A DNA stretch of 64,000 nucleotides from Brachionus manjavacas (Eukaryota > Rotifera > Eurotatoria > Ploima > Brachionidae). Below are positions 13,801 through 61,200 of the stretch, one piece after another. Within the stretch, counting starts at the first letter, position 1. Every line of letters begins with the position of its first letter. The DNA is taken from the NCBI GenBank assembly GCA_019054805.1, contig JAHQIY010000013.1, positions 2,170,001 to 2,234,000 of the forward strand. Direction: 5' to 3'. Below the pieces are notes generated by a model. That model worked only from the letters and a program-made list of their open reading frames with translations. It was not told the origin of the DNA and searched no databases. The position numbers and the translations under genes were made by a program.

Positions 13801-16800
13801 TTTGTTCCAAAATATCACTGAGAACTAAACCCTATTGAAGGCCTATGGAGTTGTCTTAAACAAAATGTTCGTACTAGAACAGATCACAGTTTTGATAAAA
13901 TGAAAAAGTTGATTGATGATGATGCTCGAGACGATTTTATTAGAAAAGAAATCTATAGAAAATTAGTACGAAGATTTTGGAGGTCAGTTGATGCTTATTA
14001 TTAAGGATCAACTTATGGTGAAGTCCTAAAGGCATATTTTTCAGGTAAAACTAAGGCAACTCATCAACAACATTTAAAAATAACAAATTCATTGCTATAA
14101 TTAATTGAATGTATTTTTTTTGAGTAATAATTACTTAAATTACTTTTAACTTAGAAAGTAAACTTATCTTTTTTCATTTTTAATGCCAAAATATGTGAAT
14201 AAATCTTCCATTTTAAATAATGTCTTCAAGAACAAGATTTTTATTAATTTTATTTCATGGTTATGAATGTTAAAAAAATATTTAAATTCATTAATCTTGA
14301 AAAAATATTTTTCAATCAGCTTGACATAACTGTTTTAAGATTAATTGAATAGTATTTGACCAAATCTTGTAAACAATCTTATAAATTTGAAATGCTAAGC
14401 TTTCTTCTATTTGTAAAATCGCGTTTTTTGACTGATTAAACGACTCGACAGAGATAAATTTAAAAAAATCTGTAAAACACACATCTGGTGTGTTCGGTAA
14501 GGAAGAACCTAACAAAAATAAAGTTAAAAAATTGTTTAAATACAGAAGATGGATTTAAAGCATGTATTAAAATGTGATAGGGCATAAAAACGTGTTTTTT
14601 ATTTCTTAAAACCTGGTTTTAAAACTTAATAAAATGAATAAACGCCGAAAATTATAACTTGACCTCGCATTAAAAATAGAATAGTAAAAGATAAATAATT
14701 GGCAAAAGAAATCAATGAAATTATGGTTCCAGGTTAGCAATTAGGATAAAAAAATTAAATATTAAAAAATGATCTAAAATTTAATAAATATAAAAAATGT
14801 TAATGAACGCTTTTTTTATATAATTTTATTAAACAATAATAAGATTAATTTAAAAGATTCCATTTTACCTTCAATTATTGAATTTCTTTCAAAAATTTAC
14901 CTTTTGTTAGAGAAACTTACGTAAAAATTACTAAAACTAAAAAGTTAATATTTTTTTTTTTAGAAAAAGGAACTAAAAAAATTTTTAATTTTTGAAAATT
15001 AATTACTATTATTATTAATTATTAAAAATAAAGTTTTGAGGTTTATCCCAAGGAACGTCAGAATGGCGTTTGAACCGGCTCTTCTGAATTTCTTTTGTTA
15101 TTTAAAATAGTTTTAAAAAAAAAGCAAAATAGGTTAACTTGAGGATAAAAAAGTTTTAGTTCTTTAAAAAAATTATCAAATGGTGTTGAAAAATATTATT
15201 TTTCAGCCTTTTTTTATTGTATATTTAAATTGTACATTTAATATTCATTAATAAAAAACTTGAATATTTTTTTCTTTTTTTTTCTTATTCCCTAGTTCGA
15301 TTATGCTACACCCCAATCTAAGGCACGCTTTTTGACCATGCACTTAAGTAAATCTCGCCCATGCAAAAACATTTTTGATTAAGAAAGCATGGTCTAATTG
15401 TATTACACGGGTTACAGGGCCGCATCAAACTCTGTCATCAAGTCATCAAGACTTAAGTTTAAGAAAAAAAATAAAAATATTTTTTTTTATTATGCATTTG
15501 AAAATAAAATATTAGAAAAATTAATTTTTTATTATTTCGGTTTTTTTTTAATTTTTTTTCTTAAAATCAAGTCTGGATGACGCATTTCGGAGTTTGATGC
15601 GGCTCAAAACCTGTAATAATACTATTAGGCCATGCATTCTGGTATTTCAAACACAAAACTGTAAAAAAATTAAATAAAAGAAGAAGCAATTATTAAAAAA
15701 ATTTATTTGTTATTACTTTGAATAAATTAAAAACTTAAATATTAAATACAAATTACTTAGAATATTGTTCATCAAGGTAACAAAAAGAAAAGTATTCAAT
15801 GACGTCTTGTCTTAGTTGAATTTTTTCCAGTTCTAAATCACTAGACAGTATTCTAAAACAATCTTACAAAATTTTTTAGTCTTCGGTGCAAGCAACATGT
15901 CTTACTTTGACAGCAATGACAGTCGATCGGTACCTTGCAGTTCTGTATCCGTTTAAATCAATTGAGTATCGAACAACAAAGCTAGCATTCGCAATTAACA
16001 TAGCAATATGGTTGGCATCTTTTTCACTCAACATTCCATATTTTATGTACTACAACCAAGTAAAATTATCGAATGTTACCTATTGTATCAGTAAATTTCC
16101 GGAAAAAGAAATCGAAATCGGTCTTACTTTATACACCGTTCTGATTTCTTACGTTTTACCTTTAATGACCATCATATTTTGCTATATGAGAATGATTTTT
16201 AAAATTTACAGCAAGTCAAGTGATCAAAAGTTAGTCGAGCAGTCAAAAAACTTTTCGGCCAGACAGGAGCAAAATTTCAAAACTAGTCAATACAGAAGGC
16301 CAGAAAGAAACCAGGCTAAAAACGATGCATGTGTCAAATTTGATCAAAATGGTTCCGAAGTGACCAACTTTTTTATCCGGGAGGAGAATTCAGACAATGA
16401 AGCAATTCATCTCGATTCCAGAAAAAAAGGATCACTCAAACTCGACAGATTGAAAAGGAGCAACCTATTAATCAAAGAGGAAAGGAAAAGTTTTGTGTGC
16501 CAAACTAACAGTGCCAAAACAAACACTCATGCTAATTCAGCATTGACCATAAAAAAGCAAAAGTTCAAAATTCTTTTACTGATCGCCACCGTTTCTTTTA
16601 CGTTTGCTCTCACATGGCTGCCAGCACATGTTATCCAAATTTGGAAAGTTGTTTTTAATTCATCATTTCCGTACAATGATGCGATGTATATCATAAAAGT
16701 TATATCCCATACACTCACGTATTCAAATAGTTTGTTGAATCCTTTTATCTATGTTTTCATAGGAGCCAAGTTTCGAAGTCACATATATTCAGAATTTAAC

Positions 16801-16980
16801 GAGTTGTATCAAGTGTACTGTTTGAGGCAAAAAAAGATCAACAGTAAAAATTCGCTCTCTAAAATGTCTTCAGCCGGTTCCAGTATGACAGTTCTAAACA
16901 GAAATAGACTCGACAAATATTCAACTGTATGTGCTATTTCAAATAACAGCTTTAACAAGATAAACTCAAGACGTTTGTGA
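10817..16980 (+). CDS. Class A neuropeptide GPCR (kisspeptin/galanin/allatostatin-A receptor-like)
   Basis: Three exons, 10817-10940, 10996-11192 and 15880-16980, join in phase to 473 codons. Visible rhodopsin-family marks are GN in TM1 (GIIGNGLIVYVILK), the TM2 Asp (NVSIADL), the TM3 Cys (FMCQF), DRY in TM3 (SVQATCLTLTAMTVDRYLA), TWLP in TM6 and NSLLNPFIY in TM7. A long basic third intracellular loop separates TM5 and TM6, and the C-tail is Ser/Asn-rich. Asn-glycosylation sites precede TM1. The TM3 block is closest in my memory to kisspeptin/GPR54-like receptors; galanin and allatostatin-A receptors are the alternatives. It should signal at the plasma membrane through G proteins after peptide binding. 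The second intron is 4,687 nt and transposon-filled. AATAAA lies at 17031-17036. Confidence 0.85.
11724..12926. repeat. Nested inverted repeat in GPCR intron 2
   Basis: An outer pair of arms, 11724-12006 and 12582-12839, is inverted with roughly 85-90% identity by eye; TGCGAGTATGTTTGTGAGAA on the left matches the reverse of TTTTTCACAAACATACTCGC on the right. A second pair, 12262-12336 and 12851-12926, is also inverted, so the two arm pairs interlock. The region between holds a LINE 3' end. Most likely a long-terminal-inverted-repeat DNA transposon that was later invaded. No transposase is visible inside. Confidence 0.6.
12121..12215 (-). mobile_element. LINE 3' end fragment
   Basis: Read on the minus strand, the segment runs through CTCCACAGGTCTCC and then TAGCTTATTATTATTATTATT. 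This matches the layout of the 3' end of the LINE at 31949-36201 (CTCCGCAGACC ... GCAGCTTATTATA). It is a short, 5'-truncated LINE insertion, or only the tail of one, lying inside the inverted repeat of the GPCR intron. No coding part is present. Confidence 0.5.
13627..14100 (+). pseudogene. Dead DDE transposase fragment (Tc1/mariner/IS630-like)
   Basis: The frame encodes a C-terminal DDE-type block: KKYGIKIIFVPKYH, an in-frame TGA (13819-13821), then ELNPIEGLWSCLKQNVR. In working relatives a Cys usually stands where the TGA is (VPKYHCELNPIE), so this looks like a Cys-to-stop change. A second in-frame stop (14002-14004) precedes the conserved tail STYGEVLKAYFSGK. The last catalytic acidic residue is the Glu of NPIE. 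The N-terminal half is not recognisable. It lies in the large GPCR intron, in the same orientation as the host gene. Confidence 0.7.
15388..15635. repeat. Foldback repeat, ~85-bp arms
   Basis: The left arm (from 15388, GCATGGTCTAAT...) and the right arm (ending 15635, ...ATTAGGCCATGC) are inverted copies. Both contain GCCGCATCAAACTC. Arms of about 85 bp surround an AT-rich centre. No clear target duplication is seen. It is probably a MITE in the GPCR intron, 244 bp before the third exon. Confidence 0.55.
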
Positions 16981-23385: not shown

Positions 23386-23736
23386 AATTTTTTTTTTGTT
23401 TAAAATTGTTTTTTTTATTTTACTAGATATCATAATAGCCGACCGGAAAGAAAGATCTGTTTGGGTAAGGGTTTCGGTTTTTACCTGTACACGCATCCAT
23501 ATCCGAAAAACACGTTAATACAAAAAGGAAAAATTATAATTTCATGAAAAGAACTAAAATTTTTGTTTAGTTTAATTTAAGTTGAGAATAGTAATTTAAT
23601 TTTTTTTCAAAAAGAAAAAAAATAGATTTAAAAATCTTTTTTGTTAAATTTTAAACTTTTGCCTTTTTTGTCAAAGTTAATTAAAAAAAAATATTTGCTT
23701 TTTCTAAAACAAAATAAAAATAATAAAACATTAATA

Positions 23737-24893
23737 CAGTGGTGTTCCGGATTTAGTAATTTACGATAATTTACGTAAAAAACAGTAAATTTACCGAATT
23801 TTACGTAAAATATTGTAAATTTACGTAAATTTACAAAAGTAAAAAAACGTAAATTTACTTGATTTTACGTAAAATTTGGTAAATTTCGATCATTTTACGT
23901 AAATTTATGTAAAAAAAAAAATGTCCAAAAAATTGAAATAATTTGGCACTTTTTAAAAAAAATGAATTTTTATTATCCTTCAATATTTATACCCAAAATT
24001 ATGAAAAAAAAAAAATTACCATAATTTACGTAAATTTTGGTAAAATGTAATCAATTTAATGGTAAAAAATAGTAAAAAATGGTAAAAAATGATTATTTAA
24101 AATTTTAAATTAATTTGAAAAAAAATTTTTATTAGGTTGGTTATAATTTTTCAAACACTTAAAGGGTGAAAAATTAATTTTAATTTTCTTTAATTTTTAT
24201 TATTTTTGTTGAAAGGCAAAGATTTAAGTAGAGAGCGCATTTGGGTATTTGAAATTGTTAAAAGAGAAATACCAGGTCAAAAAGATCAGAGAAAATTCTA
24301 AGCTATTTCTAAAGCTCCTTCAAAAATTAATGAATTTATTTTTTTATTTTTTGAAGGAGCTTTAGAAATAGCTTAGAATTTTCTCTGATCTTTTTGACCT
24401 GGTATTTCTCTTTTAACAATTTCAAATACCCAAATGCGCTCTCTATGAGATGTTAGCAATTTTAACTTATAATATTTTTTTAACGTAAAAAATTGAAATA
24501 AAAATTTTTTTCAAATTAATTTAAAATTTTAAATAATCATTTTTTACCATTTTTTACTATTTTTTACCATTAAATTGATTACATTTTACCAAAATTTACG
24601 TAAATTATGGTAATTTTTTTTTTTTTCATAATTTTGGGTATAAATATTGAAGGATAATAAAAATTCATTTTTTTTAAAAAGTGCCAAATTATTTCAATTT
24701 TTTGGACATTTTTTTTTTTACATAAATTTACGTAAAATGATCGAAATTTACCAAATTTTACGTAAAATCAAGTAAATTTACGTTTTTTTACTTTTGTAAA
24801 TTTACGTAAATTTACAATATTTTACGTAAAATTCGGTAAATTTACTGTTTTTTACGTAAATTATCGTAAATTACTAAATCCGGAACACCACTG
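23737..24893. mobile_element. 1.16-kb composite foldback palindrome with TA flanks
   Basis: The outer arms 23737-24132 and 24499-24893 are near-perfect inverted copies of about 396 bp beginning CAGTGGTGTTCCGGATTTAG. A second, independent inverted pair of 97 bp (24230-24326 and 24348-24444) sits around a 21-nt loop at the centre. The segments between (24133-24229 and 24445-24498) do not match. TA flanks both outer ends, as for Tc1/mariner insertions. The outer arms contain many copies of the self-complementary word TTTACGTAAA. No ORF is present. Confidence 0.9.
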
Positions 24894-26303
24894 TAGATAT
24901 ATCTATTAATGTTTTATTATAATTTAATTTTCTCATATTAAAATGCCAAGACAAGGGGGAAAAGAATCGCGATTTTAATTTTTGAAATATACCTTCGAAA
25001 TTACCATGTTCCATTGCTGTTCAAACTCGAGTTAATCAGGGAAATATTCGAAAATATAATAATCGGATATAAAGTGTTTTAAAATAATTTTTTAATATAA
25101 ATAGAACTAGAATTTTCTATTATCTTCATTTTCTATTATAAAGAATAAATAATAAAAATTGTACTTTTTAATAATTATTTTTTTAGATTAGCTTTTTTTA
25201 AGATGATATGTTACTTTTTGAAATTAATATTATAGCTAATTTAACTGGGGTTGAATTTTTTAATTGAGTTAAATTTAATGTTGGTTCTATTCGTCGTTGA
25301 AATTTTCAATCAATCAATTTTATCAATAAAAAATGTAATTTTAGATGTGAATATTGCACAAGATGGTTCTTTTCTCAATTTATAAAGCTTCGAAAAAGAA
25401 GCGTTTGCCATTGATAAATCATGTACTGTTTCAAAAGAAACAATCATCATTTCCTAAAGATATTAAACTTTTTGTTTACTTTTCGATTTTGACTCAAAAA
25501 ACTGACTGGACAATTGGTCACTTGATACCTGGTCTAATCATAATCTTATATGGAACACTTGAAACTGGAAAAAAAAACTTAACGAAGATTCAATAAATAA
25601 ATCATTAAAATCAAAGTTTGAATTTTAACTCAGTTGAAAGATTTATTTGACAGCAGCTTTGTTGAATACGTCATAATTAGAATTATGGTACGAAGAGCCT
25701 TATTTAGAAAAATTCGGAGCCAAAGCAGTTAAAGTTTGGAAAAAACTGCTTTATTCTTAATGAATGAAAAACAAGAATCGAATCAGCCTCGGACTAGTTA
25801 ATCTAAATTTACTCCAAGGCCATATCATATACAATGCAGCTTTTAGAAATTTAGTATAAGTCCAAGTCTTATCAAACTCAGATCGATGTTTCACGAACCA
25901 ATAATTAAACGAAATAAGGATTGAATGTTCATAGTTTTTTAAAAGAGAAAAATTTATTTTTCAAATTAAAAATAAATATCATTTCTGATTGAAAAACAGC
26001 TCATTTGGCTTAAATTTTTTCAAAGACAAATTATTTATTATCTTAATTGATGTGATGTATTTTTTATTTTGTAAAACAAGTTGATATAGTTTTGAATTAT
26101 GATTTAAAAATCTTCTAATATTTGTTCTAATTATAAGTTTATTTCGATTGATCAAAGACGTTAATGAGTATCACTAAACTCAAAAGTTTTCATATGATTT
26201 TTAAATTTTTAAACGTGAATAAACAGTCATGTGATTTGGGAACCTTATTTTTATATTTGAAATTTGCGTCCCAAATTTTATTTTAAATTTGAATAAAAAA
26301 AAT
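24894..26303. other. Intergenic stretch before cathepsin Z copy 2
   Basis: No recognisable gene is seen. A weak 80-codon frame (25354-25596), beginning MHKMVLFSIYKASKK, and broken frames up to about 25860 (EEPYLEKFGAKAVKVWKK) have slightly more balanced base composition than the surroundings. They may be an eroded transposon gene. I cannot assign a family. Confidence 0.35.
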
Positions 26304-27467: not shown

Positions 27468-28852
27468 ATTAATAATTGCAATAAATTGGAATGATTTTTT
27501 ACTAATTTTTAGCAAAATAAATTTTAAAAAAAATTAAAATTTGATTCTAAATTTAATACGATTTAAATTAAATTATTATTTTTGAAAAAAATATATCACT
27601 TTCAAAATCTATATAGTTAAATAAACCTTTTAATGATTAAATTTCAATCTCAGTAATAGCTGAAAGTCTTTTTCAGTTCTTTTATTCTAAAATAAAAAGA
27701 TAAGTAGATTAAATGGAAATTATTTAAAAAAAATTACTTTTGGGAAGATTAATTTAATGATTTTAGATGGCAAAAATTAATGGAATTTTTTTTAGAATCC
27801 TATCTAAAAAAAATTTAAAATTTATCTTAATTAAAAAAAAATTTTGATATGAACTATGTAAAATTGTCACAATATTTTAAAGATCCCGTTTTTATTCTGA
27901 AAGATAAAAAAATGAATAAAATGGAAAAAAAAATATCAGATGAATATTATACGGTTAAGGAATGAGAGAAGAAAAATACGTAAATGTGGTAGGAATGTTA
28001 ATTTAAACTTTAACTTTTAAAATAGACAGAACTGTTGAATTTTTGATTTTTTGTATTTTATTAACTACAACCAAATAAAATATCTAAAAGTTTTCTAATT
28101 TTTATCTTTAGATTAAATTTTTTTTATTTGATGGTATCTTAATTGAATTCAAAAAAGTATTTAATGATTCAACAATAATTCAGATACTACAATAATTCAA
28201 TGATTCAACAAAATGGAACATGTTATTTAAATATGTGACTTTGTTATAAATTTAAAATGTTTGCAAAATCATCTACCGAAGCAGAATAGACATCAAAAGA
28301 AACTTAAATTGAAATCTGCAAAATATCTTCTTATAAATTTTAATAATTTTTCAAAAAAAATTTTAATTAAGGTTTATAGATTTAACAATCAAATAGTGAC
28401 CAAAATTTTTTTATTTGTTTATTTGATAAGAAGACTTATAATTTTTTTAAAATAAAATTAATATATAATTAAAAGTAATTTTTTCTTTTTGTCCATGGAA
28501 CTTTAAAACTTTAATAAACAAATTAAATGTCCCCAAAATTATTTGAAATTATTCGCTTGTGTCCGATAATAGGATTGTAATGCTAAATGCTTTTAATATC
28601 AATCAACTCGATCTTATTCAAAAAAGTCGACTTTTATTTTGCTTTAAATTGAGGCATTATTGACCTAAAAAATTATTATTTTTTATAAAATGAATATTTT
28701 ATAATCTTATTTAATGCTAAATAGCTCTACCCGATTGCAGTTTTTCTATGTAATTCTTTTTTTTCTTTTTTAGTGAGAGCAAAATTAATTTCATTAAAAT
28801 TTTCATAAACAAATTGAGAAATAATTTTGGTAATAATTTTCGAGAGAACAGA
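27468..28852. other. Intergenic stretch, cathepsin Z2 to UBE2W
   Basis: AT-rich DNA with no convincing exon. A good acceptor (TTTCTTTTTTAG, ending at about 28773) and an open frame from there into UBE2W suggest an upstream, possibly 5' untranslated, exon of that gene. I could not place that exon. Confidence 0.4.
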
Positions 28853-29352
28853 ATGGCTCTACGGTTACAGAAAGAGCTAGCCAATTTTATGCGAGACCCC
28901 ATTCCAGGCATGAGTTTGGATCACAACTCTGTGGAAGGCAACATAAATGTCTGGGTGATAAATGTGGCCGGAGCATCAAACACTCTATACGAAGGTGAAA
29001 CTTTCAAATTGCAGTTCAAGTTTCCACAACGATATCCGTTCGATTCACCGTCAGTAATGTTCATCGGCAGCAAAATACCTGAGCATCCACACATTTACAG
29101 CAATGGCCATATTTGCTTATCTATTTTGACAGATGAATGGTCACCAGCTCTGTCTGTTCAATCTGTCTGTCTGTCCATACTGAGTATGTTAAGTAGTTGT
29201 AAAACAAAAACTCGGCCCTCTGATGACGAACGCTACGTTTTAACGTGTCGTGACCCGAGTGATCCTAAAAAAACTAAATGGTTTTTTCATGGTAAATTAT
29301 TTCAATTTTTTTTTCATATTTTTATTTTTATTCTGTAGATGATGATGTGTGA
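28853..29352 (+). CDS. UBE2W: Ubiquitin-conjugating enzyme E2 W
   Basis: Two exons, 28853-29291 and 29339-29352, encode about 150 residues, the usual length of UBE2W (151). The ATG at 28853 gives MALRLQKEL, matching the family start. The UBC fold is evident in YEGETFKLQFKFPQRYPFDS and the catalytic Cys in YSNGHICLSIL, followed by WSPALSVQSVCLSI. The end KKTKWFFHDDDV resembles the WWYHDDTC tail of UBE2W. The family attaches a single ubiquitin to protein N-termini with RING E3 ligases in cytosol and nucleus. The last exon is only 14 nt and its splice completes the HDDD tail. The frame is open upstream of the ATG, so an upstream exon is possible. Confidence 0.93.
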
Positions 29353-32002: not shown

Positions 32003-32806
32003 ATGGTTAATGAAAACCAATATCCACTGGATCTTGTCGGTGTCTGGCCGAGCTTAGGACAAGGAGGTCATTCGGAATGCACTAAGACAATGTTCTTTTG
32101 GATGAAAAACTTGTGTGCATCCGTAAAAGCACTCAAAAACAAAGTCGATACACTTGAATCAAAAGTTGAAACGCTCGAGAGAGAAAAAAACGAATTAACG
32201 GATAAACTAGCAACAATGCAAACTAACCCTCGTCCTTCAGTTGACTGGACAAAAGTCTTTGACAAAAACACAAAAAATACGAACGAAGAAGTTATGATTA
32301 TTGCGAAAGTAGCGCGCGAACTTAAAAGTAAAGAAACTAGAGAAAATAATATAATTATAAGCGGACTAAACGGACTCGAAACTGGAACTGAAGAGGAAAA
32401 ACTGGAATTCGATAAACAAGAAGTGGAAAAAGTTCTAGATGTAATCGGCATCGCTCCGACTAGGGTAAAAAGACGATCAAGAATACGTAAAATTAGACAG
32501 GACAATAAACCGGAACTTATGATTGTCGAATTTGAGGAAAAAACACATCAGGAACAAGCATTATTGAGTAGTAGATTGCTAAGAGAAAAACAAGTATACA
32601 AAAATGTTTATATAAACAAAGACTTGACTCGTAACGAATTGGATGAGGCAAGAGAAAGAAGAAGCGTTATACGAGCGCGAAACGATAATCTTGAAAATGG
32701 AGAAGGGAGGCTTAAATACGGCGTACACAACGGAAAAGAGTTTTATTGGGGCGAACGATTCGGTAATGTTGTTCGAATCGACAAACAGACTAAGCGAGCC
32801 ATCTAA
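32003..32806 (+). CDS. LINE ORF1, coiled-coil nucleic-acid-binding protein
   Basis: 267 residues. Residues about 35-72 form a heptad coiled coil (VKALKNKVDTLESKVETLER). The second half (NIIISGLNG ... KPELMIVEFEE ... KNVYINKDLT) has the layout of the RRM/CTD-type domain of LINE ORF1 proteins, which trimerise and coat the element RNA. No CCHC zinc knuckle is seen. It overlaps the start of ORF2 by 41 nt if ORF2 uses the ATG at 32766. The frame is fully intact, in contrast to ORF2. Confidence 0.8.
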   Translation: MVNENQYPLDLVGVWPSLGQGGHSECTKTMFFWMKNLCASVKALKNKVDTLESKVETLEREKNELTDKLATMQTNPRPSVDWTKVFDKNTKNTNEEVMIIAKVARELKSKETRENNIIISGLNGLETGTEEEKLEFDKQEVEKVLDVIGIAPTRVKRRSRIRKIRQDNKPELMIVEFEEKTHQEQALLSSRLLREKQVYKNVYINKDLTRNELDEARERRSVIRARNDNLENGEGRLKYGVHNGKEFYWGERFGNVVRIDKQTKRAI

Positions 32807-34084
32807 AAAATCGCTCGCAAACTTGGACCCAAAAGCGGCAAAGACGAACAGCAAAAATTTAATTAATAATATTAATAACAAAAAACCTCAACAAAACAAC
32901 AACAATAAATTAAGCTGCTTTTTTACTAACGCTACTTCACTCCAATCATCGAATAAAATTAATCAATTTAAATCTTTAGTATCATCTCTCAACTTCCCGG
33001 ACGTTATCTGCGTATGTGAAACTTGGTTCACTAACAATTCAACACATACATTAAATGGCTACCAAATCTTTTTCAGAAATCGAAAATCTGACTTAGACGG
33101 CGGAGGCGGTGGCGTAGCAATTTATGTCAAACTTGGTCTCACAGCGCATGAAGTAGTAAACAAACGCTTGAATGATCTTAAAATAGAACAAATTTGGTGT
33201 GAAATAATAATTAACGAGAAAAAGGAATCAATAATTATTGGCTGTATCTACAGGCCTCCGCAGTCCAGTAGAGAAACAAATATTGAGATAAATCGATCGT
33301 TTATTGAAGCCAACAGACTCGTTGCCTCTAAAAGGCACACGGGACTCCTAATTGTCGGTGATTTTAACTACTCAGATATCCAGTGGACAGAAACAGGTGG
33401 CTTATGCAAAGGTAGTGGAAGAGCCTCGAGCCTAGAATTTTTAGATAATGTTAACAACAACTATCTTGCACAAGTAGTCAAGGAGCCTACATTTAGGAGT
33501 AATACTCTCGACTTAGTCTTTGTAGATGACCCGAATCGAATTTACTCAGTCGATATTGGCCCTCCAATAAGCGTCTCAAAATTAAATCAATTACACTCGA
33601 CCTTAACTTGGGAATTTCACTTAAAGGAGGAGGCTGTTAAAAATCAAAATAAAGGCAATCGTTTTCTCTACCACAAAGGTAAATATGATCTTTTTAACAA
33701 ATCAATTAATGACATAAATTGGTATGAACTTAATGACGAGTTAAACGAAAACGAAATGTTTGAGTTATTTCTAGAAAAATACGACAAAGCCTCGAACAAT
33801 TTTATTCAAAAGATTAAGGTCTCATCTGGCGTTACCCAAACCAAAGCTAAACCAAAATGGTTTAACTCAAATATCAAAAAATTAACAAGAAATAAATATC
33901 AACTTTGGATTAAATTAAGAGCTAATAACAAAAAAGATAAGAATTTAATCGAAGAGTACAATCGCGTCTCTAAAAGTGTCAAATCTCTAGTCAAAGATTC
34001 TATTGTTAATTACGAAAAATCTATAATAAGCAAAGCAAAAAAACCCAAAACTTCTTTACACATATATAAACGAGCAAAAAAATA
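32766..34084 (+). CDS. LINE ORF2, apurinic-type endonuclease part
   Basis: The frame encodes an APE-like endonuclease domain: FFTNATSLQSSNKINQF, VICVCETWF (catalytic Glu), GGGVAIYVK, IIGCIYRPPQS, LLIVGDFNYSDIQW (metal-binding Asp and Asn) and STLDLVF-type SNTLDLVFV. This nicks target DNA to prime reverse transcription. The open frame starts further upstream (ATG at 32643) inside ORF1; the ATG at 32766 is the more natural start. It ends at a TAA (34083-34085) just after a run of seven A, where the RT continues in another frame, so one base has probably been gained or lost. Confidence 0.8.
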
Positions 34085-35869
34085 AAGGATAGCATTCGTT
34101 CTCTTAGTGTTGATAATAAATTCGTTGTTGAAGATGAGGAGATCGCCAACTGTTTAAGCGACTGCTTCTTTCAGGTGTTTACCAAGCACAACGACGACGT
34201 GGAGTTTCCTCATTTATCAAACCGTGCAAATAATTTATGCTTAATAAAAGAAGAAACTTTTTCTCGCGAAAATATACTAAAAGAGCTTTTACGACTGGAC
34301 GTTAATAAAACAATGGGTGCTGACGCTATTCATCCCTATGTTCTAAACAAGTGTGCTGAAAGCTGTTCACAAGTGTTGGCCCTGATCTTTGCTAAGTCTT
34401 TTAAAAATGGTAAGCTCCCTGAGAAATGGAAAGAAGCCGACTTAACACCGACCTTTAAATCAGGAAATCGAACCGATCCATCTAATTACAGAATAATTTC
34501 TCTGACTTCAGTACCATGCAAAGTTATGGAGCGCCTAATCAAGAGAGAAATGGTTCTGCACCTCATTAGAAATAAGTTAATCTCGCCTGAGCAACATGGC
34601 TTTGTGCAGACGAAATCATGTGCAACCAACTTGTTAGAATCACTCGATATGCTCACTGAGACTTTAAATAAAGGGTTTGCGTTGATTCTTATTTACCTTG
34701 ATTTTGCGAAAGCTTTTGATAAGGTATCACACAGAGCGCTAATCTACAAAGTTGAAAAGTATGGCTTTTGTGATCCACTATTAAGGTGGCTCAAGGATTT
34801 CTTAACTGGCAGGAAACAAAGAGTTGTAATAAATGGTTGCGCGTCAGTTTGGAAAGACGTTCTAAGTGGAGTGCCTCAAGGTTCAGTCCTGGGTCCACTA
34901 CTTTTTGTACTCTTCATAAATGACATGCCAGAAGTCATCAAAAATATATGTAAACTGTTTGCATACGATAGTAAACTCATAACATGTATTAAAAACGAAG
35001 ATGATCGAGCAACCGTCCAACAGGACCTAGACGCGCTATTCAAGTGGTCACAAGATTGGATGATGTGTTTTAACAACAACAAGTGTAAAGTGATGCACAT
35101 CGGCAAAGGAAAAGGTCACAACAAAGTAAACTTAAACTTAGATTTAGCATCATCTTTTCAACTAGAGGAGTCGAAAACTGGACAAAAAATCGCACTGAAA
35201 GAAACAAAAGTTGAAAGGGACCTTGGTGTGTATATCTCGAACGACCTGAAGTGGCATGAACAAGTAAAACACGCTACCGCGCAAGCCAACTCTGTTTTAG
35301 GCCAACTTAAGAGATCAATACAGGTTTGGGACATTAAATCATTTAAAACTCTTTACACAGCATTTGTTAGACCTCACTTAGAATATTCGTCGTCTGCCAT
35401 GAACCCATACAGAAAAAAAGATATTAAGATGCTTGAATCAGTACAGAGAAGAGCCACAAAGCTTGTACCAACCCTAAAGCATCTATCATATGAGACAAGA
35501 TTAGAAAGAGTCGGCCTGACAACATTGGAAACGCGTAGGGAACGTGGCGACGCAATACAATACTTTAAAATAAATTCTGGACTAAATTCAGTCTGCTGGT
35601 ACTATCCAAACAACCAAGTACACTCAATTAACGCTTTGGGTGCAGCAAGCAATGTAAGAGGCAACAATCGTCAGTCTCCAAAAATAAAAAGACAATTTAC
35701 TCGGAATTGTAACCAGAGGGAATATTTTTTTATAAATAGAGCAGTGCCAATCTGGAATTCACTGCCAAGCGAGGTACAGTTATCAAAAACAGTCAACGAG
35801 TTCAACGAGTTCAAAAACAAATACGACGAATTTAAAAACAGCCAGCGAACGATGAGATTCAACATCTAG
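34085..35869 (+). CDS. LINE ORF2, reverse transcriptase part (frameshifted)
   Basis: The frame continues the protein after the A-run: linker, then RT blocks NKTMGADAIHPYVLN, NYRIISLTSVPCKVMERL, LISPEQHGFV, LIYLDFAKAFDKVSHRAL, SGVPQGSVLGPLLFVLFIND. The catalytic block reads KLFAYDSKL, whereas active elements have A-D-D; the first Asp is Tyr (one-base change GAT to TAT). The distal region (LYTAFVRPHLEYSSSAMNP, RRATKLVPTLKHLSYE, NCNQREYFFINRAVPIWNSL) is intact. Combined with the frameshift this copy should not retrotranspose. Confidence 0.9.
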   Translation, partial: KDSIRSLSVDNKFVVEDEEIANCLSDCFFQVFTKHNDDVEFPHLSNRANNLCLIKEETFSRENILKELLRLDVNKTMGADAIHPYVLNKCAESCSQVLALIFAKSFKNGKLPEKWKEADLTPTFKSGNRTDPSNYRIISLTSVPCKVMERLIKREMVLHLIRNKLISPEQHGFVQTKSCATNLLESLDMLTETLNKGFALILIYLDFAKAFDKVSHRALIYKVEKYGFCDPLLRWLKDFLTGRKQRVVINGCASVWKDVLSGVPQGSVLGPLLFVLFINDMPEVIKNICKLFAYDSKLITCIKNEDDRATVQQDLDALFKWSQDWMMCFNNNKCKVMHIGKGKGHNKVNLNLDLASSFQLEESKTGQKIALKETKVERDLGVYISNDLKWHEQVKHATAQANSVLGQLKRSIQVWDIKSFKTLYTAFVRPHLEYSSSAMNPYRKKDIKMLESVQRRATKLVPTLKHLSYETRLERVGLTTLETRRERGDAIQYFKINSGLNSVCWYYPNNQVHSINALGAASNVRGNNRQSPKIKRQFTRNCNQREYFFINRAVPIWNSLPSEVQLSKTVNEFNEFKNKYDEFKNSQRTMRFNI

Positions 35870-39018: not shown

Positions 39019-42000
39019 ATGAGCGATCCGAGACCAAGTGATACAAGCGGACCAGCAGCAAACGCAACAATGCACAAGAGCAAAACAACAGGAGGCAGAG
39101 CGCGCGGCGCCACCTACGACGGAAACAAGTGCATGATTTGCAGCGACCGCGCGTCCGGCTTCCACTACGGCGTGTTGGCATGCGAAGGGTGCAAGGGCTT
39201 TTTCAAACGCGTGTGCAAAGAAAAGCTCAAATCGGACAGCTCAGGCGAGAGCACAGTGGCCAGCCTTCAGAGCAAAAGGCACTGTGTTTTCGGCGGCAAT
39301 TGTGAAATAAGCGTTCGAACGCGGAACAGGTGCCAATATTGTCGGATCCAAAAGTGCATTGACCTTGGCATGTCCAAAGACGGCATAAAACTGGGCCGAA
39401 GGTCAAAAAAGTTCAAGCAAAATCTCAACTCGGTCATCAACCGAAGACCGGACCAAGCAAGTGCCGACGCTCCGGCAAACTCGGACCTGTACAAGCAGCA
39501 AATAATCGCCATATTGCAAGACAACAAGCTGGTGATCAAAGCCATAGACATTCTTTCTGCTGCGGCAGCAAGTGTGAGCGCTCCACAAACTGGCCATGCC
39601 ACATCGACCGCTCGGTCTTCATCGCTCCCGGTGTCCTTGACAAGCAACAGCGCGCCAAGCTCGTTGGACTTGGCAGAAAATTCAGTAGAAAGTGAACAGA
39701 TCCAGAGTATTGGAGAAACAGTGGCTCAAGCGTTCAGCGATACCAAAGCGGTGTTTTGTGACAATTTTGCCATCAATTTTGAAGAGGAGAACTCGATCAA
39801 ATTGTGCCATGATCTCTGCCAGTTGATTGCTCCGGGCCTAGTGCATGTTCTCAATGGGAGCAAATTTTTGGACCATGCCAACGTGCTAATTGAGAACACT
39901 GTTCTTTTTGCCAAGAATGTGCCGTTTTTTATGACCATTAATGAAGCGGATCGGATCACTCTGCTGAAAAGCTCAGTGTTCGAAATAATATGCTTGAGGC
40001 ACTCGATATTTTACAAGTATTCGTCCAGTTTGTCGAGCCTGAGCACTTTGGCCGACTGCGCCCTGGCTCACGATGGAAGCGAGTCCAGTCTAGTGGAGTC
40101 AAAGTTCTACTTGCCGTTCTTGAACTGCTGGATCACTTGCGACTGGCTGAGTGACAAGTTACATGATGCAAAAAAGTTTTTAAATTTGTTGTTTGAGTTT
40201 TATTTTTATTTGAATTCAATAAGTCTGAGTGAGTTCGAGCTAGCCGTATTCTGTGCTTATTTGCTCTTCGATTCCGGTAAGTTTTAACAAGAGTACTTTA
40301 CTTATACCAGAGTTAAGGTGCGCCTTGGGCAACACCACAGCACTATCTTAATTTTAAATTTTTGCGCACAGTTTAGTTCGGTTATGACGAACACTCTGGG
40401 GAAATAGGAAAATAGTTCATAAAAATTTTTTTTCTAACAGTTAAATAAATTTGGAAATTGGAGAAGTTTTATTACAGAAAAATGTGGCTAAGACACAAAA
40501 ACAGCCTGAGTCTTTTGCTTACTGTCAATAAGCTTAGTGTATTTTTCTTTTTGGTGCAAAGCTATTTTCATTATAAATGATAAAATGGAAAGAAAATTAA
40601 AAAAGATATGTTGAAATAGAGAGACGTATTTAACTATTGCATTGTAGAAAAAAAGAAGAATTGTAAGCTAGGTAGCAATTACAAAAGCCAGTCGGGTTTT
40701 CGATGTTAAGTGGTATTTTTTATGTCATCTAAAATTTATCATCAAAATACACGCAAATTTGAATTAATTAAGTAGAAATGATCCATAAAATTTTTATTTT
40801 ATTAAAATCATTTGCTATGAATTCTTGGGTCTTGTCCAATATGTGATCACTTGATCACCAAAAATGTGATCATTTTAATAATGCTGGTTTTGTGAACAAG
40901 ACTGATCACCAAATCGATGATCACACAATATGTGATCAAAAATATAAAAAGTAAAATTAAGGAAAAAACTTTTGTGATCAATGTTTTTATTTATGTGATC
41001 AAAGTTTTTATAAATACGTAAGAATAAAGTGGCAATATTTATAATATATATAGATCATTAAAATATAAAGTTTTCCCATTAAATTTTCTTGATAAAAAGA
41101 TGTCACATTAATAAAGTTTTATATAGAAAAAAAATTAACATGAAATTTGACTGTGTTTTTTAGCAATATGGAGTTTCTCTGTTTAAATTGTGATCAAAGT
41201 GGAGAAGAATTGAATCAACTGTCTTTGAAACAGTCAACTCGGCAGCCCAAGATCGAATGACAGCCAAAATTATACGAATCGGCTTTTTAAACAATGAAAA
41301 AAACGAGTCCTCAAAGATTGATTTAAATGTTTTACATGAACTACATCGCCATGAAATAATGGCATTCTTGGCATTAGTAGATCTTTTTCTTTGCTTCAAA
41401 TTCATTACTGTACCAAATTTTTTGCAGAAAGTTTTAGAGCATTTCTGATCGTTTTTAATTAAGCCAATCTTAGCTATTTTCTCAAAAAGTTTTAAATCTT
41501 CACTTTTTTTATTATTTGATTCAAGACATTCATTCATTTTATATATTACAATTTAAAGCTTAGTAAGCGTAAGAATGATTATATAAAAAAGATTTCAAAA
41601 CTGAAGCACATATAATTTATATTGCAATATTAATGTGACATCTTTTTATCAAGAAAAGTTGATGAGAAAATTTTTTATTTTGATGATCAATATACATTAT
41701 AAGTTTAAGATTCAAGCGTGATCAGTAAATTTTTTTTAGTGATCGTAGTTTAAATTCTCGTGATCAATCATTTGATCACATATTGTGTGATCATCGATTT
41801 GGTGATCAGTCTTGTTCACAAAACCAGCATTATTAAAATGATCACATTTTTGGTGATCAAGTGATCACATATTGGACAAGACCCGAATTCTTTATTGATT
41901 AGAATAAAAAGTGTCCTCATGTATCTTTTTGTGTCTTTTTGTGTACTTTTGCTATGAATCCTTTTTTGCTTAGATTAAAAGGTGTCCTCTTGTGTCTTTT

Positions 42001-46159: not shown

Positions 46160-47601
46160 TTAGCATGACAATTTTTTGCTTAGATTTTCTTGAAGTTTAT
46201 CCAAAAATTCAAAAGTGTTTAAGAAGTCTTTTCGTTCGACGCTAAAAAAAAGAATTGAACCAAAATTAGCAATTGATATTGAAAATTACTTAGTTCCTTT
46301 GATGCAAATAGCCAAATCTTTGGTCATAAAACCCGATTCGATTGTTTCTACACATGTTTCCTCTAGTTTCTTGGCAAAGTTATCCAATTCAGTGTTATTA
46401 TCCAGTTTTGCTCTATGCATAAAGCCTCTGGTCCATGCAAAAATACTAGCGATTGGATTTGTGCTGGTCTCTTTGCCTTGCTGATGCATTCTAAAGTGAC
46501 GAGTAACAGTTCCATGAGCAGCCTCAGATTCAATTGTTTTTCCATCTGGACAAATCAACACTGAAGTCATCAGCCCCAAAGAGCCAAATCCTTGGGCAAT
46601 GCTATCTGACTGCACATCTCCGTCATAATTCTTACATGCCCAAACAAAACCGCCTTCAGACTTCATGGCTGCAGCAACCATGTCATCGATCAAGCGATGT
46701 TCATACCAAATTTTTTTTGCTTCAAACTTTTCTTTATATTCTCTAAAACAAAAAAAAATAGCAATCAAAATTAAAGATGGTCTTTTAAATGTTCATTTAT
46801 ACTTTTGGTAGATTTCGGCAAAAATATCTTTAAAACGTCCATCGTATTTTTTTAAAATGGTATTTTTAGTACTCATGTAAAGAGGCCATTCTTTTTGCAA
46901 GGCAAACTGAAATGAACTATGGGCAAATTCTCTAATTGACTTAAAAAATTATTTTTTAAATTTTAAATTCAATTTAATTTTTGATTTATCACTTCATCAG
47001 TGTTATACATAGCTAATGCAACTCCTCCACCATTGGCAAAGTCAAAAACGGTATACTTTAATTGATTTGATGGATCTTGGGAAGAAGTCCACGAAATTTC
47101 GAGTTTTCCATTTCCCGGGACAACAAAATCAGTGGCTTTGTATTGATCACCGAAAGCATGTCTTCCGATAACAATAGGCTTAGTCCAACCTGGTACCAAG
47201 CGAGGTACATTTTTACAAATAATTGGTTCCCTGAATACAGTGCCGCCAAGGATGTTTCTAATGGTACCATTCGGGGATTTCCACATCTTGGATAAGCTAA
47301 ACTCTTTGACTCTGTCCTCATCGGGAGTAATTGTTGCACACTTAACACCAACATTGTACTTTTTGATCGCATCAGCAGCATCAATTGTAACTAGATAAAA
47401 GATTAAGCAAAAAGAATTTAAAAATAAACTTAATTTACCTTGATCTTTTGTTTTTTCTCTATATTCTATACCCAGATCGAAGAAATGTAACTTCATATCA
47501 AGGTAGGGAAACAAGAGTTTTTCTTTAATAAGGTCCCAAATGACGCGCGTCATTTCGTCGCCTTGAATCTCAACAATATCACCACATTGAATTTTGGCCA
47601 T
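46160..47601 (-). CDS. IDH1: NADP-dependent isocitrate dehydrogenase, cytosolic type
   Basis: Five exons on the minus strand, 47601-47439, 47390-46993, 46939-46803, 46742-46290 and 46241-46160, join to 410 residues (human IDH1 has 414). The enzyme oxidises isocitrate to 2-oxoglutarate and makes NADPH as a homodimer. Visible are [20 protein letters not shown] (substrate Ser/Asn/Arg), [12 protein letters not shown] (the Arg equivalent to human Arg132), [12 protein letters not shown] (Tyr and catalytic Asp), [10 protein letters not shown] and AAHGTVTRH (NADP site). There is no mitochondrial leader before [11 protein letters not shown]. The end LSKKLSC lacks the peroxisomal AKL/SKL signal. AATAAA (minus strand) is at 46097-46092. 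Confidence 0.96.
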
Positions 47602-48479
47602 TTTCAAAAAATTCGATTAAAATAAAATAAATCTATAATAAAAATATTTGAAATTAAACACGCCCTTTATAAAAAAAAGCTTGGTGCATTTTTGATTTTC
47701 ATGTAGCATGGGTCCAAATTAGCATTCTAATATGAACACCAAATTTGAAAAAAATATCTTGCATTATAATTTTCTAAATTTTACTTGATTTTGAATTAAA
47801 AATTTAAAACTTTGATCGACTGTAAGAAAATGTGCTTGTTCCCATAATTTTTTGTTTTATGAAAAAAAACTAAGCGTGGCAATTTCTAATCAAATGACCA
47901 TTCTAAAATTTATCTTCATTTTTGTCGAGATAAAAATTGCAAATTTAAGTTTATTTAAAATTTTAATTTTTGAATAAATTTGCTTAAATTTAAAATTTTT
48001 TATCTAAAAAAATATTTAACTAGTATTTTAGCTTTTTTAGTTTATCGTTTAATAAAGAGATTTAAATGGATTTCTTTAAATAAAAAGAATTTTTGAAACA
48101 TTTACGATAGTTTTTAATTTTTTCAGATCGTGAGATCAACAAAAAAACCAAAAAATTTAAATGATAAAATTTTGGAAATAATTTCCAAATAGCTTTTGCC
48201 GATCTTTAAAGATTCATAAGAAACTCATTGCAAAAAAGAAGAGAAATAGAATAAGATCTATCTAAATTTACCTTAAGCTTTGAAAATTTGATAATAGGTA
48301 ATTTTTGGTAAAATGTCAAATTGAAAAAAATTAAATTTTTAATTATGTTAAACTTGAATATTTTAAATCAAAAATAATTAGAAAATAAAGCTAAACGAGT
48401 CTATTAATTGCAATTTACGGTGATTTTTTATTTTAATTAAGTTTAAGTTTAATTAGTTTGTAAGAAAATCAGTTAATAC
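47602..48479. other. Intergenic stretch upstream of IDH
   Basis: AT-rich, with no recognisable exon or repeat. The promoter of the minus-strand IDH gene must lie in its left part, but no element can be named. Confidence 0.4.
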
Positions 48480-58200: not shown

Positions 58201-61200
58201 ATCGTTCTGAGTAAATTCTTGTAGATCTCGATGATTTTATTCAGAAATTATAATAAATTTATTTACAGGATAATCAGCTATTGAAAAATGGAACCTAAAT
58301 GTTACAAAGAGTCAGATGCCAGGGCATCTTTTAAGCTAGACACTTCTAATTTTCACCAAAGTAATATTTTTGTCTATATAATTTGATAACAGTACCGGTA
58401 AATTTAAAAATCAAAATCTAAATTCTTAGTATGGTCACGTTAAGACCTTGGGATTTCCCCTTGCCATTGATCCACCGATCTAAAAAAGAGCTTTTTAATA
58501 TATTGCCAAATGAGATGAACATATTTAACAATAAGATCATGGAATAAATCCTTTCTATCACTAAAAAAATATTAATTGAAAATGAAATAATTCCTATGAT
58601 GTTTTTGGCGAGGATTAGGAACAAAAAAAAAGATAACAAAATACAAAAAAAAAATTTTAATATAATTTAATATAATTCTCTTCTTTTTCATTTGAAATAA
58701 ATTTCTTGTTTTACAGCAGTTTAACTGTCTAATTACTGAATCTTGAAAGATTCTAGGTAGATTTTTTTTTCATCTCCTATATTTAAATTTTTTATTCAAC
58801 AAGAGTTTAGATCACAAAAATTAAAATGAAGATAAATTAGAAAAGGTAAGAACATATTTAGTAAAGGAAAAAAGTGTTTTAGTACCACCTAAAATCTGTA
58901 AATTAATCCATCTTATAAATGTAACCAAAAATTTGCATATGCAGAATTAACCATAACCGTGTAAAGGTGTAGGTATGGGTTGAATAATTAGCATTTCTGG
59001 ATATAATCAGTAAAACCATTCAAAAAATTCCAAAAAAATCCGGTAACCTAACTTATACCCAAATCTAAATAATTAAGATTTTGAGGTTTTTAGAATGGTT
59101 ATACCCATTATACCCAAAAATGCGAATATTTCAACACATATCTACACCTAAGTACCGGAAAAATCAGCACTTTAACCTATACCCATAACAATTAGCCTGA
59201 AAAAAAAAGCTTCTCAAATCTTACCCATATTACTAAAAATTGGGTGGAATGTCTGAAATAAAGTCTGCTTTAAATTAAAAATAGTTAATTAATTAGTTAA
59301 AAATTTGATCATAAATTTTAATTTGCCAACATTTTTGATGTCTGGTGGTTTATGAGAAAGTTTGTTCACTTATTAGGAAGTGAACTTAATAAGTGAACAA
59401 ACGTTCTCAAAAACCAATAGAACCCCTTTTTGATTCTAGTTGCTAAAATTATTCAAAAGCTTTCAAATATCACAAAATTCAAAGAAATAACAGTTGGAAA
59501 ATTTTTCAGTGACTTCTGGAATTTGGTGCAATTGACTTCGATTTTCCTGTTTGGAATTGGAATTGGTTTGCGTTTTGTACCAGATTATAACTTTTATCTG
59601 GCTGCAAGGATAATTCTTTCAATTGATATCATATTTTGGTTTTTCTGTGGCTTACATGGCTATTCAGTAGTTAGAAGTCTTGGTCCGAAGTTGTTGATGA
59701 TTCAAAAAATGCTCAACGAATTGGCTGTTTTTTTACTAATTGTGGTTGTTTTTATATTCGCTTATGGCATATCAAGTCAGTCTCTAATGTACCATAACCA
59801 GGAGTTGGATTTGTCCCTTTTAAAAAGTGTTTTCCTTCCAGCTTATTTCGTAATTGGAGGCGAGTATTTTGAGAGAGAAAAACTCATGGATATTGACGGA
59901 TGTCACTCAAATTTAACTCAACTATTAATTACAGACGCTTACACACAGGAAGATTGTCCAGAAAAATATGGTGCCAATGTCAGTCTCTTTCTTTTAGTTG
60001 TCTACATCATGCTCCTGAACATATTATTAGTTAATCTGTTGATTGCCATTTTCAGCAACACTTACGAGAATGTAGAGTCCGAAGCTGATAAAATTTGGAA
60101 ATTTCAGCGCTACAGATTGGTAAATGAATATTTTCACAGACCATTTTTACCAATACCGTTGACAGTGTTTGATTATTTTTACAAAATCGTCAAGTATTTA
60201 ATTCAGTTTTCGCTAGGAAACTGTCTAAATTTTAAATTTAAAGAAGCAATCAGTTTAAGTATTAATATAATTAATTTATTTGATAATTAACTTAATTTTT
60301 TTGTTCTACAAGATTCGAATTTTTTTGCTACATCCGAAAAAAATAGGCTCAAATTGTGGGAAAGCTTTATTGCTGAAGAGTATATGAATAAATTTCACAT
60401 CCAAATGAATTATCAGGAAGAAAAGAATAAAGAAATTTTGAAAAAGTTGGTTTTATTTAGAAGCCAAAATTAATTTTATAAAAAATATCTTTTTTTAGAT
60501 TTGACACTTTTAATATTAAAATTGATAAGCTAACTGAAATTCAAAATAATTATGAAAATACTTTAAAAATTTTGCAAAAAAAATTTGATTTATTACTAGA
60601 AGGCAAACTCGAGAAATCGGTTGATGAAATTGATGATCAGACTAAGATTTCGAAGAAACCATTAAAGTCGATAGCTGAAAACAATAGAACACAATTTTAT
60701 CCTGAATCCAAAGTTGAAAAAAAAGAAGTTCCGCTTGGCAAGATAAAATGGTCTGATTTATATGTGGAATATTATCCAAATGAATATACTTCAGAAAATG
60801 TATTGTACAATTTGACAGCAGATGAGGAACTTATAAACAAGTATGATAAAGGAGACTTGTTTTTAATTTATCAAATAATCAGTAAAAATAAAAAATCAGT
60901 AATTTTTTCCAGATTTATATATAGATGACTCGTTTAAATACTTATTTGGCATATTAAATTCAAAAATTTGAATTTTTAAATTGAATAATGCTATAAATAT
61001 TTTTGTAACAACATTTGATACAAAAATGGGGTTATCAAAAATTATTGAAGCTGGGACAAAAGAATTTTCTGATTTTAAAATATTATTTTAATATTTTTTT
61101 TAAAAATTCAAAATGATTGCCTTCTTAATATTTTCTGATTTCTTTTTTAAGGAAAAGAATCAGACATTATTTAAACATGTGGTGCCAATCGTTCTATGAT

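Follow-up and report, generated by a model that had tools for sequence, protein, structure and literature searches.

Introduction

How small non-coding transposons originate from larger ones is still debated. CAGT-type ends are usual for Tc1 transposons, and MITEs in the strict sense are short, usually well under 1 kb. Among the closest described systems are the MITEs derived from the Tc1/mariner-type Bari transposons, which the relevant part of PMC4877112 describes as elements of less than 700 bp with an intervening sequence that is apparently unrelated to Bari. Galileo of Drosophila, in the sections of PMC2775673 that characterise it, is a Foldback-like member of the P superfamily with 7-bp target duplications; of the GalileoN copies reported there, two have repeats whose identity exceeds 99% inside each copy but which diverge by ∼7% from one copy to the other, and another two are chimeric through recombination. 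In yeast, foldback inversions arise via single-stranded DNA hairpins, for which the pertinent passages of PMC7467729 give loops of 4 to 44 nt in tel1 mutants. Plant MITEs have been discussed in connection with small-RNA genes (PMC3237417, in part), and where repeats of Brachionus are treated, one passage of PMC6555955 names MITEs as a class only.

Here we describe a palindromic element of 1157 bp (positions 23737-24893) in a stretch of 64,000 nucleotides of Brachionus manjavacas DNA, which we refer to throughout as the window. Comparison with its relatives elsewhere in the genome suggests, with a probability of roughly three in four, that the palindrome is one of the copies of a chimeric, non-coding element of Tc1/mariner type that was amplified recently and would have arisen by fold-back of a composite element. 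Among the listed titles and abstract openings of the open-licence literature on MITEs, palindromes, template switching and fold-back, none gave a name for this architecture.

Results

Structure of the palindrome

Alignment of the two halves confirmed that the palindrome predicted from the window sequence is real (Table 1). The outer arms, which had been described as near-identical over 396 bp, align over 396 nt each without a single substitution and differ by two 1-nt indels, which fall in A runs. The inner arms are 102 nt long with one mismatch and pair perfectly over their first 98 nt, which bears out the ∼97-bp perfect stem with a 21-nt loop of the original prediction; the segments separating the two layers, put there at 97 and 54 nt, come to 96 and 52 nt with the boundaries set in this analysis. 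The third layer consists of an imperfect palindrome within each outer arm (in the left arm, 23751-23834 paired with 23839-23922).

Table 1. Features of the palindromic element and its flanks, in window positions.
Feature	Position	Strand	Basis or remark
TA target-site copy, left	23735-23736		printed flanks
Left outer arm (terminal inverted repeat), from Tc1-like transposon	23737-24132	+	87-92% to the ends of transposase-bearing L064
Imperfect palindrome in left arm, third layer	23751-23922		84-nt arms, 76%; mirrored at 24708-24879
Filler of ∼18 nt at left spacer-deletion junction	24133-24150		no match in the L066 element; retained in other L-type halves
L spacer, from repeat X	24151-24228	+	within L066 element 690-866
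Inner arm 1, from repeat X	24229-24330	+	arm alignment, L066 and X mapping
Short loop	24331-24343		13 other copies have a 35-38 nt loop instead
Inner arm 2, inverted copy of inner arm 1	24344-24445	-	arm alignment, L066 mapping
R spacer, inner part (positions 27-52 from arm)	24446-24471	-	matches left side of composite relatives
R spacer, outer part (positions 1-26)	24472-24497	-	subterminal sequence, both sides of composite relatives
Right outer arm (terminal inverted repeat)	24498-24893	-	arm alignment
TA target-site copy, right	24894-24895		printed flanks

The ends of the element read CAGTGGTGTTCCGG and have TA flanks on both sides; beyond the TA the printed flanks of the window copy do not repeat one another, unlike the 7-bp target duplications of Galileo. 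The RNA fold predicted for 24133-24497 has an energy of -191.6 kcal/mol, compared with a mean of -64.75 for shuffled sequences, which is far beyond chance (none of 100 shuffles folded as well). No open reading frame of 100 aa or more was found to overlap 23737-24893, so the element does not itself encode a transposase. A search of the arm for another copy of the tip motif found none, which leaves an IR/DR layout unsupported, and there were no exact matches to the nematode SL1 leader. With its 1157 bp the element is larger than a MITE in the strict sense; shorter relatives occur, e.g. L069, which measures ∼0.33 kb from end to end.

We considered a coding origin for the inner segment, which contains a 41-aa reading frame. 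This frame recurs at a minimum of 150 places (best 150 of 563 candidates scored), the open frames around it ranging from 28 to 136 aa, and a Pfam search up to E = 5 gave no match. A coding origin was therefore rejected, and the frame is read as a piece of repeat X, which is described below.

The window has a G+C content of 27%. Ordinary animal genes lie around the element (15886-16980, 28814-29338, 39019-40287, 46969-47607 and 59430-60290), the neighbouring family matches being to a rhodopsin-type receptor, a ubiquitin-conjugating enzyme, a nuclear receptor, an isocitrate dehydrogenase-type protein and an ion channel. At 32643-35869 on the forward strand, adjoining Exo_endo_phos endonuclease and RVT_1 reverse transcriptase frames resemble a LINE-type retrotransposon.

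Copies in the genome

The genome searched was the window's own (114 Mb in 61 contigs), and the counts given here are lower bounds, the best candidates having been scored. Other copies of the ends, on whose existence the original prediction depended, were abundant: the 17-nt end with its TA has 346 genome copies within two mismatches (177 forward and 169 reverse; positions listed for 100 of the 346), compared with 4 for the control. The arms, which were also to be sought elsewhere in the genome, proved to be repeated as well. For the outer arm, at least 41 matches are full-length or nearly so (392-396 nt, 95-100%), including the two in the window, and there are also one match of 239 nt and weaker internal ones (best 40 of 642 candidates scored), and the inner part of the element is likewise repeated (best 40 of 683 candidates scored).

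We fetched 57 loci, among which L053 overlaps L035, and L042 and L067 are probably not independent. Of the 57, 40 have two recognisable ends, and 38 of these 40 retain TA next to each end, a proportion that is biased because the search pattern itself contains TA; L052 and L088 each lack TA on one side. L042 and L067 lie ∼3 kb apart (G000:C1 near 4270636 and 4273665), probably in a local duplication that includes a palindromic copy. By eye, a piece of repeat X in L042 runs into a frame resembling a LINE reverse transcriptase.

Many dispersed, TA-flanked copies resemble the outcome of transposition and not a single locus kept in place, which makes it very unlikely that the window palindrome is a hairpin RNA locus, i.e. 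a source of natural double-stranded RNA that the host would keep for silencing transposons, even with its very strong predicted fold and with arms that match two repeat families. The window also has no Rfam match at the gathering threshold, which is weak evidence in the same direction.

Transposase-bearing relatives with the same ends

Four longer loci with the same ends have Tc1-like transposase (L064, L065, L097 and L100). L064 (2.28 kb) and L065 (3.53 kb) share the ends of the window element and encode pieces of such a transposase, and a 97-aa stretch of the L064 transposase has matches of 96-98% at three further places, L065 among them. In L097 and L100 (91% over 86 aa) transposase matches are accompanied by ends on both sides; within the fetched stretches, element ends were absent from L099 and L102-L105, and L101 had one. 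At ∼988-2246, L065 is ∼1.25 kb longer than L064, apparently through a nested insertion.

Taken singly, the exons of L064 score below Pfam cut-offs. When the predicted exons were joined via two inferred introns, they passed the DDE_3 cut-off (38.7 vs 28.6 bits, 1.2e-09) and matched the Sleeping Beauty transposase 5cr4 at 8.9e-16, this being the only match among solved structures. Read by eye from the predicted exon join and the Sleeping Beauty alignment, with inferred splice sites, the distance from the second D to the E is 34 residues in L064, a spacing that we take to correspond to the label DD34E. The DDE_1 family has 117 matches in the genome, and none of the ten best DDE_1 loci showed element ends.

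The Tc1/mariner-type transposition that had been proposed from the ends and TA flanks of the window copy is supported by these flanks, by the dispersed copies and by the same-ended elements with a transposase like that of Sleeping Beauty. The window element itself appears to be a non-autonomous member of the Tc1/mariner type that presumably depends for its movement on a Tc1-like transposase acting in trans.

Composite relatives and repeat X

The inner segment is present once in nine fetched loci (L066, L077, L088, L089, L090, L092, L094, L106 and L107), all of which also hold arm pieces of the same family; from end to end, these composites measure 1.97 kb in L066, 1.57 kb in L088 and 1.02 kb in L092. 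The interior of L066 is an abundant repeat, here called repeat X, to which most long matches are at 78-94% (best 40 of 1967 candidates scored). Repeat X is ∼1.35-1.5 kb in L110, L111, L112 and L066 999-1969, and is abundant in the genome. Three solo copies, L110-L112, have inverted ends of their own (TGGTTTAATTTTTTGTG-like), and Tc1 tips in convergent pairs are absent from them. In L066, L090, L106 and L107 the right end of X is followed by closely similar sequence ending TAATTAA, beyond which L066 runs on into sequence matching the subterminal region of L064 (76%). The X ends together with the L064-like flanking sequence indicate that the composite form is a Tc1-like element with an X interior, and that the layers of the window copy differ in ultimate origin. 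The suspicion that inner and outer layers are of mixed origin is thus upheld, the outer layer being Tc1-like and the inner one coming from repeat X.

The two ends of L066 are 99.3% identical to each other, and L066 itself may be young or converted. We take the composites to be older than the palindromes because of their wider spread, i.e. the 78-94% of most long X-type matches. In L092, at 764-1203, the two X ends share one flank, which is inverted at one end relative to the other (ATTAATATC / GATATTAAT) and suggests that an X end was duplicated there by a process similar to fold-back.

Mapping of the window copy onto a composite

We mapped the window copy onto L066, numbering both elements from their first position. 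Positions 1-393 of the window copy correspond to 1-410 of L066 and positions 415-592 to 690-866, both directly, and positions 597-710 correspond to 882-767 and positions 714-1157 to 461-1 (88.2%), both inverted; positions 736-1157 alternatively match the right side of L066 directly (87.6%). The left half of the window copy is therefore without ∼411-689 of L066, where it has the ∼18-nt filler instead, and the right half is without ∼462-766. The right spacer, which the MAFFT alignment had misplaced, was read by eye. The window copy probably represents the left half of a composite, duplicated in inverted orientation, with two different deletions in the spacers. As the deletions differ between the halves, the spacers look unrelated; the original description of them as such is correct for the sequence, and the part of it that goes wrong is their history, since the most plausible reading is that a single ancestral arm left a different remnant in each. 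Nor do the two layers appear to be separate, as was first thought: mapped onto L066, they are best read as one interrupted palindrome.

Nested elements would give a similar outline, if a separate short hairpin element with 97-bp arms had inserted between two Tc1 arms, and repeat X of the inner segment does exist without Tc1 arms (in the three copies examined, with many more matches). However, L066, L088, L090, L092 and the three solo X copies each have a single segment to which both inner arms of the window copy map, and the right spacer puts the inner and outer layers on the same side of the composite relatives. We reject nesting as improbable on these grounds.

The side of the composite from which the R spacer came was read from its matches in the nine relatives, with positions counted from the arm. 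In five of the nine, R-spacer positions up to 48 lie to the left of the inner segment; this match directly abuts the arm in L066, L090 and L106, lies beside a truncated arm in L088 and has no arm to be seen next to it in L107. A left-side match was absent from the other four (L077, L089, L092 and L094). On the side of the right arm, the match ends at 26 in L066, L090, L092, L106 and L107, and at 31 in L094. Displaced R-spacer copies (6-48, 6-40 or 16/17-48; 76-88%) are found further inside on the right in six of the nine relatives (L066, L088, L090, L092, L094 and L107), and because of these a right-side origin with one further deletion is possible, less economical than a left-side origin. The inverted duplication of the inner segment, as read from the mapping, stands regardless of the side. 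No palindrome with both spacers intact was found among the fetched loci.

Half types, loops and arm homogenisation

We typed the halves of 32 copies, i.e. the window copy and 31 of the 57 loci, the remaining 26 (composites, degenerate, truncated or duplicate) being left out. Halves like the left and right ones of the window copy (L and R, respectively) occur in all combinations: nine copies are L/R, eleven L/L and nine R/R, and three with one readable half stayed untyped. A variant L half occurs in six of the eleven L/L copies. Plain L and plain R halves have junctions common to the copies, from which we infer that each deletion happened once and then spread between halves. The occurrence of L/L, R/R and L/R copies suggests that halves were exchanged or converted between copies.

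A loop was printed for 22 copies and fell into two recurrent types. It is 35-38 nt long in 13 copies (eight L/L, four R/R and one L/R) and 13-16 nt in seven (five L/R, two R/R and no L/L), and it is lost in the remaining two (L041 and L051, both L/R), so that loop types cross half types. By eye, the longer loop resembles the sequence past the inner segment in L088, and in L081 the direction of the loop relative to the L half is opposite to that in the window copy. The loops bear on whether two defective Tc1-type copies could have inserted head to head and been trimmed to a palindrome later, which would yield inverted arms and permit different deletions on each side. Since the inner arms enter one of the two recurrent loops within X in 20 of the 22 copies, and since no typed copy has more than one end motif per orientation, when such a pair might leave internal ends, we regard this course of events as very unlikely.

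Among 20 complete copies (327 gapless columns), the two arms of one element differ at a mean of 2.0 sites, compared with 3.6 between elements, and none of 20,000 shuffles gave an own-arm mean as low. An element's own arms were strictly nearest to each other in three of the 20 copies, tied in ten and not nearest in seven, and substitutions private to one element numbered six in both arms and 19 in one arm only. Pairwise divergence in 22 copies was 0.42% within and 0.95% between copies. Judged by these comparisons, arm-to-arm homogenisation is real but modest, the latter because own arms were strictly nearest in so few copies and not nearest in seven. Both the young age and the arm-to-arm conversion suggested by the near-identity of the window arms find support in the difference between 2.0 and 3.6 sites.

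Palindromes are prone to mis-assembly. An assembly artefact can be dismissed here as extremely improbable, as copies with this architecture lie at separate places, differ in their flanks and come in distinguishable L/L, L/R and R/R forms.

Discussion

The inverted duplication of a composite that we favour for the window element would be the second of five steps. A transposase-bearing element would first have taken up repeat X and lost its gene. During repair of a break or gap, a strand would then have folded back inside X and been copied, so that a long palindrome resulted, bounded on either side by one terminal repeat and its duplicate. One half would subsequently have lost L066-element ∼411-689 (the L type) and the other ∼462-766 (the R type), conversion or template switching via the shared arms would have generated L/L and R/R copies, and all of these forms would have spread by transposition at TA sites.

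One genome holds transposase-bearing relatives, composites and palindromic derivatives together, with breakpoints that can be read, and the series is legible from inverted duplication through two different deletions to the mixing of halves. Because the relatives co-occur and their breakpoints are readable, the fold-back route to a new element can be tested by comparison of strains or species. The family may also illustrate the birth and spread of a hairpin with the potential to form long double-stranded RNA. As the hairpin joins Tc1-like arms to X, its transcription would give double-stranded RNA against both; that it acts as a mobile source of anti-transposon RNAi, with its halves kept matched by conversion, is an improbable extension of this model.

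The element resembles Tc1/mariner transposons with long inverted repeats, such as the Sleeping Beauty and Bari LIR types, and MITEs in its TA site and long terminal inverted repeats, and relatives that have the ends of the window element carry a DDE transposase matching that of Sleeping Beauty. The window element differs from them in that it is a non-coding inverted duplication, has a further hairpin nested at its centre and is built of halves that can be exchanged, and its 1157 bp compare with the less than 700 bp described for Bari MITEs. Galileo, as characterised in the sections cited above, is similar in its long inverted repeats, within-copy likeness and chimeric copies, but has 7-bp duplications and belongs to the P superfamily, whereas the window element has TA flanks and Tc1 kinship. 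The hairpin priming described for yeast resembles the proposed fold-back step, the longer loops being 35-38 nt here; however, the yeast foldback inversions of those passages are chromosome rearrangements and not the birth of a transposable element. As a chimeric, palindromic, non-autonomous element of Tc1 type, the window element is a neat variant of known mobile DNA and not a new system.
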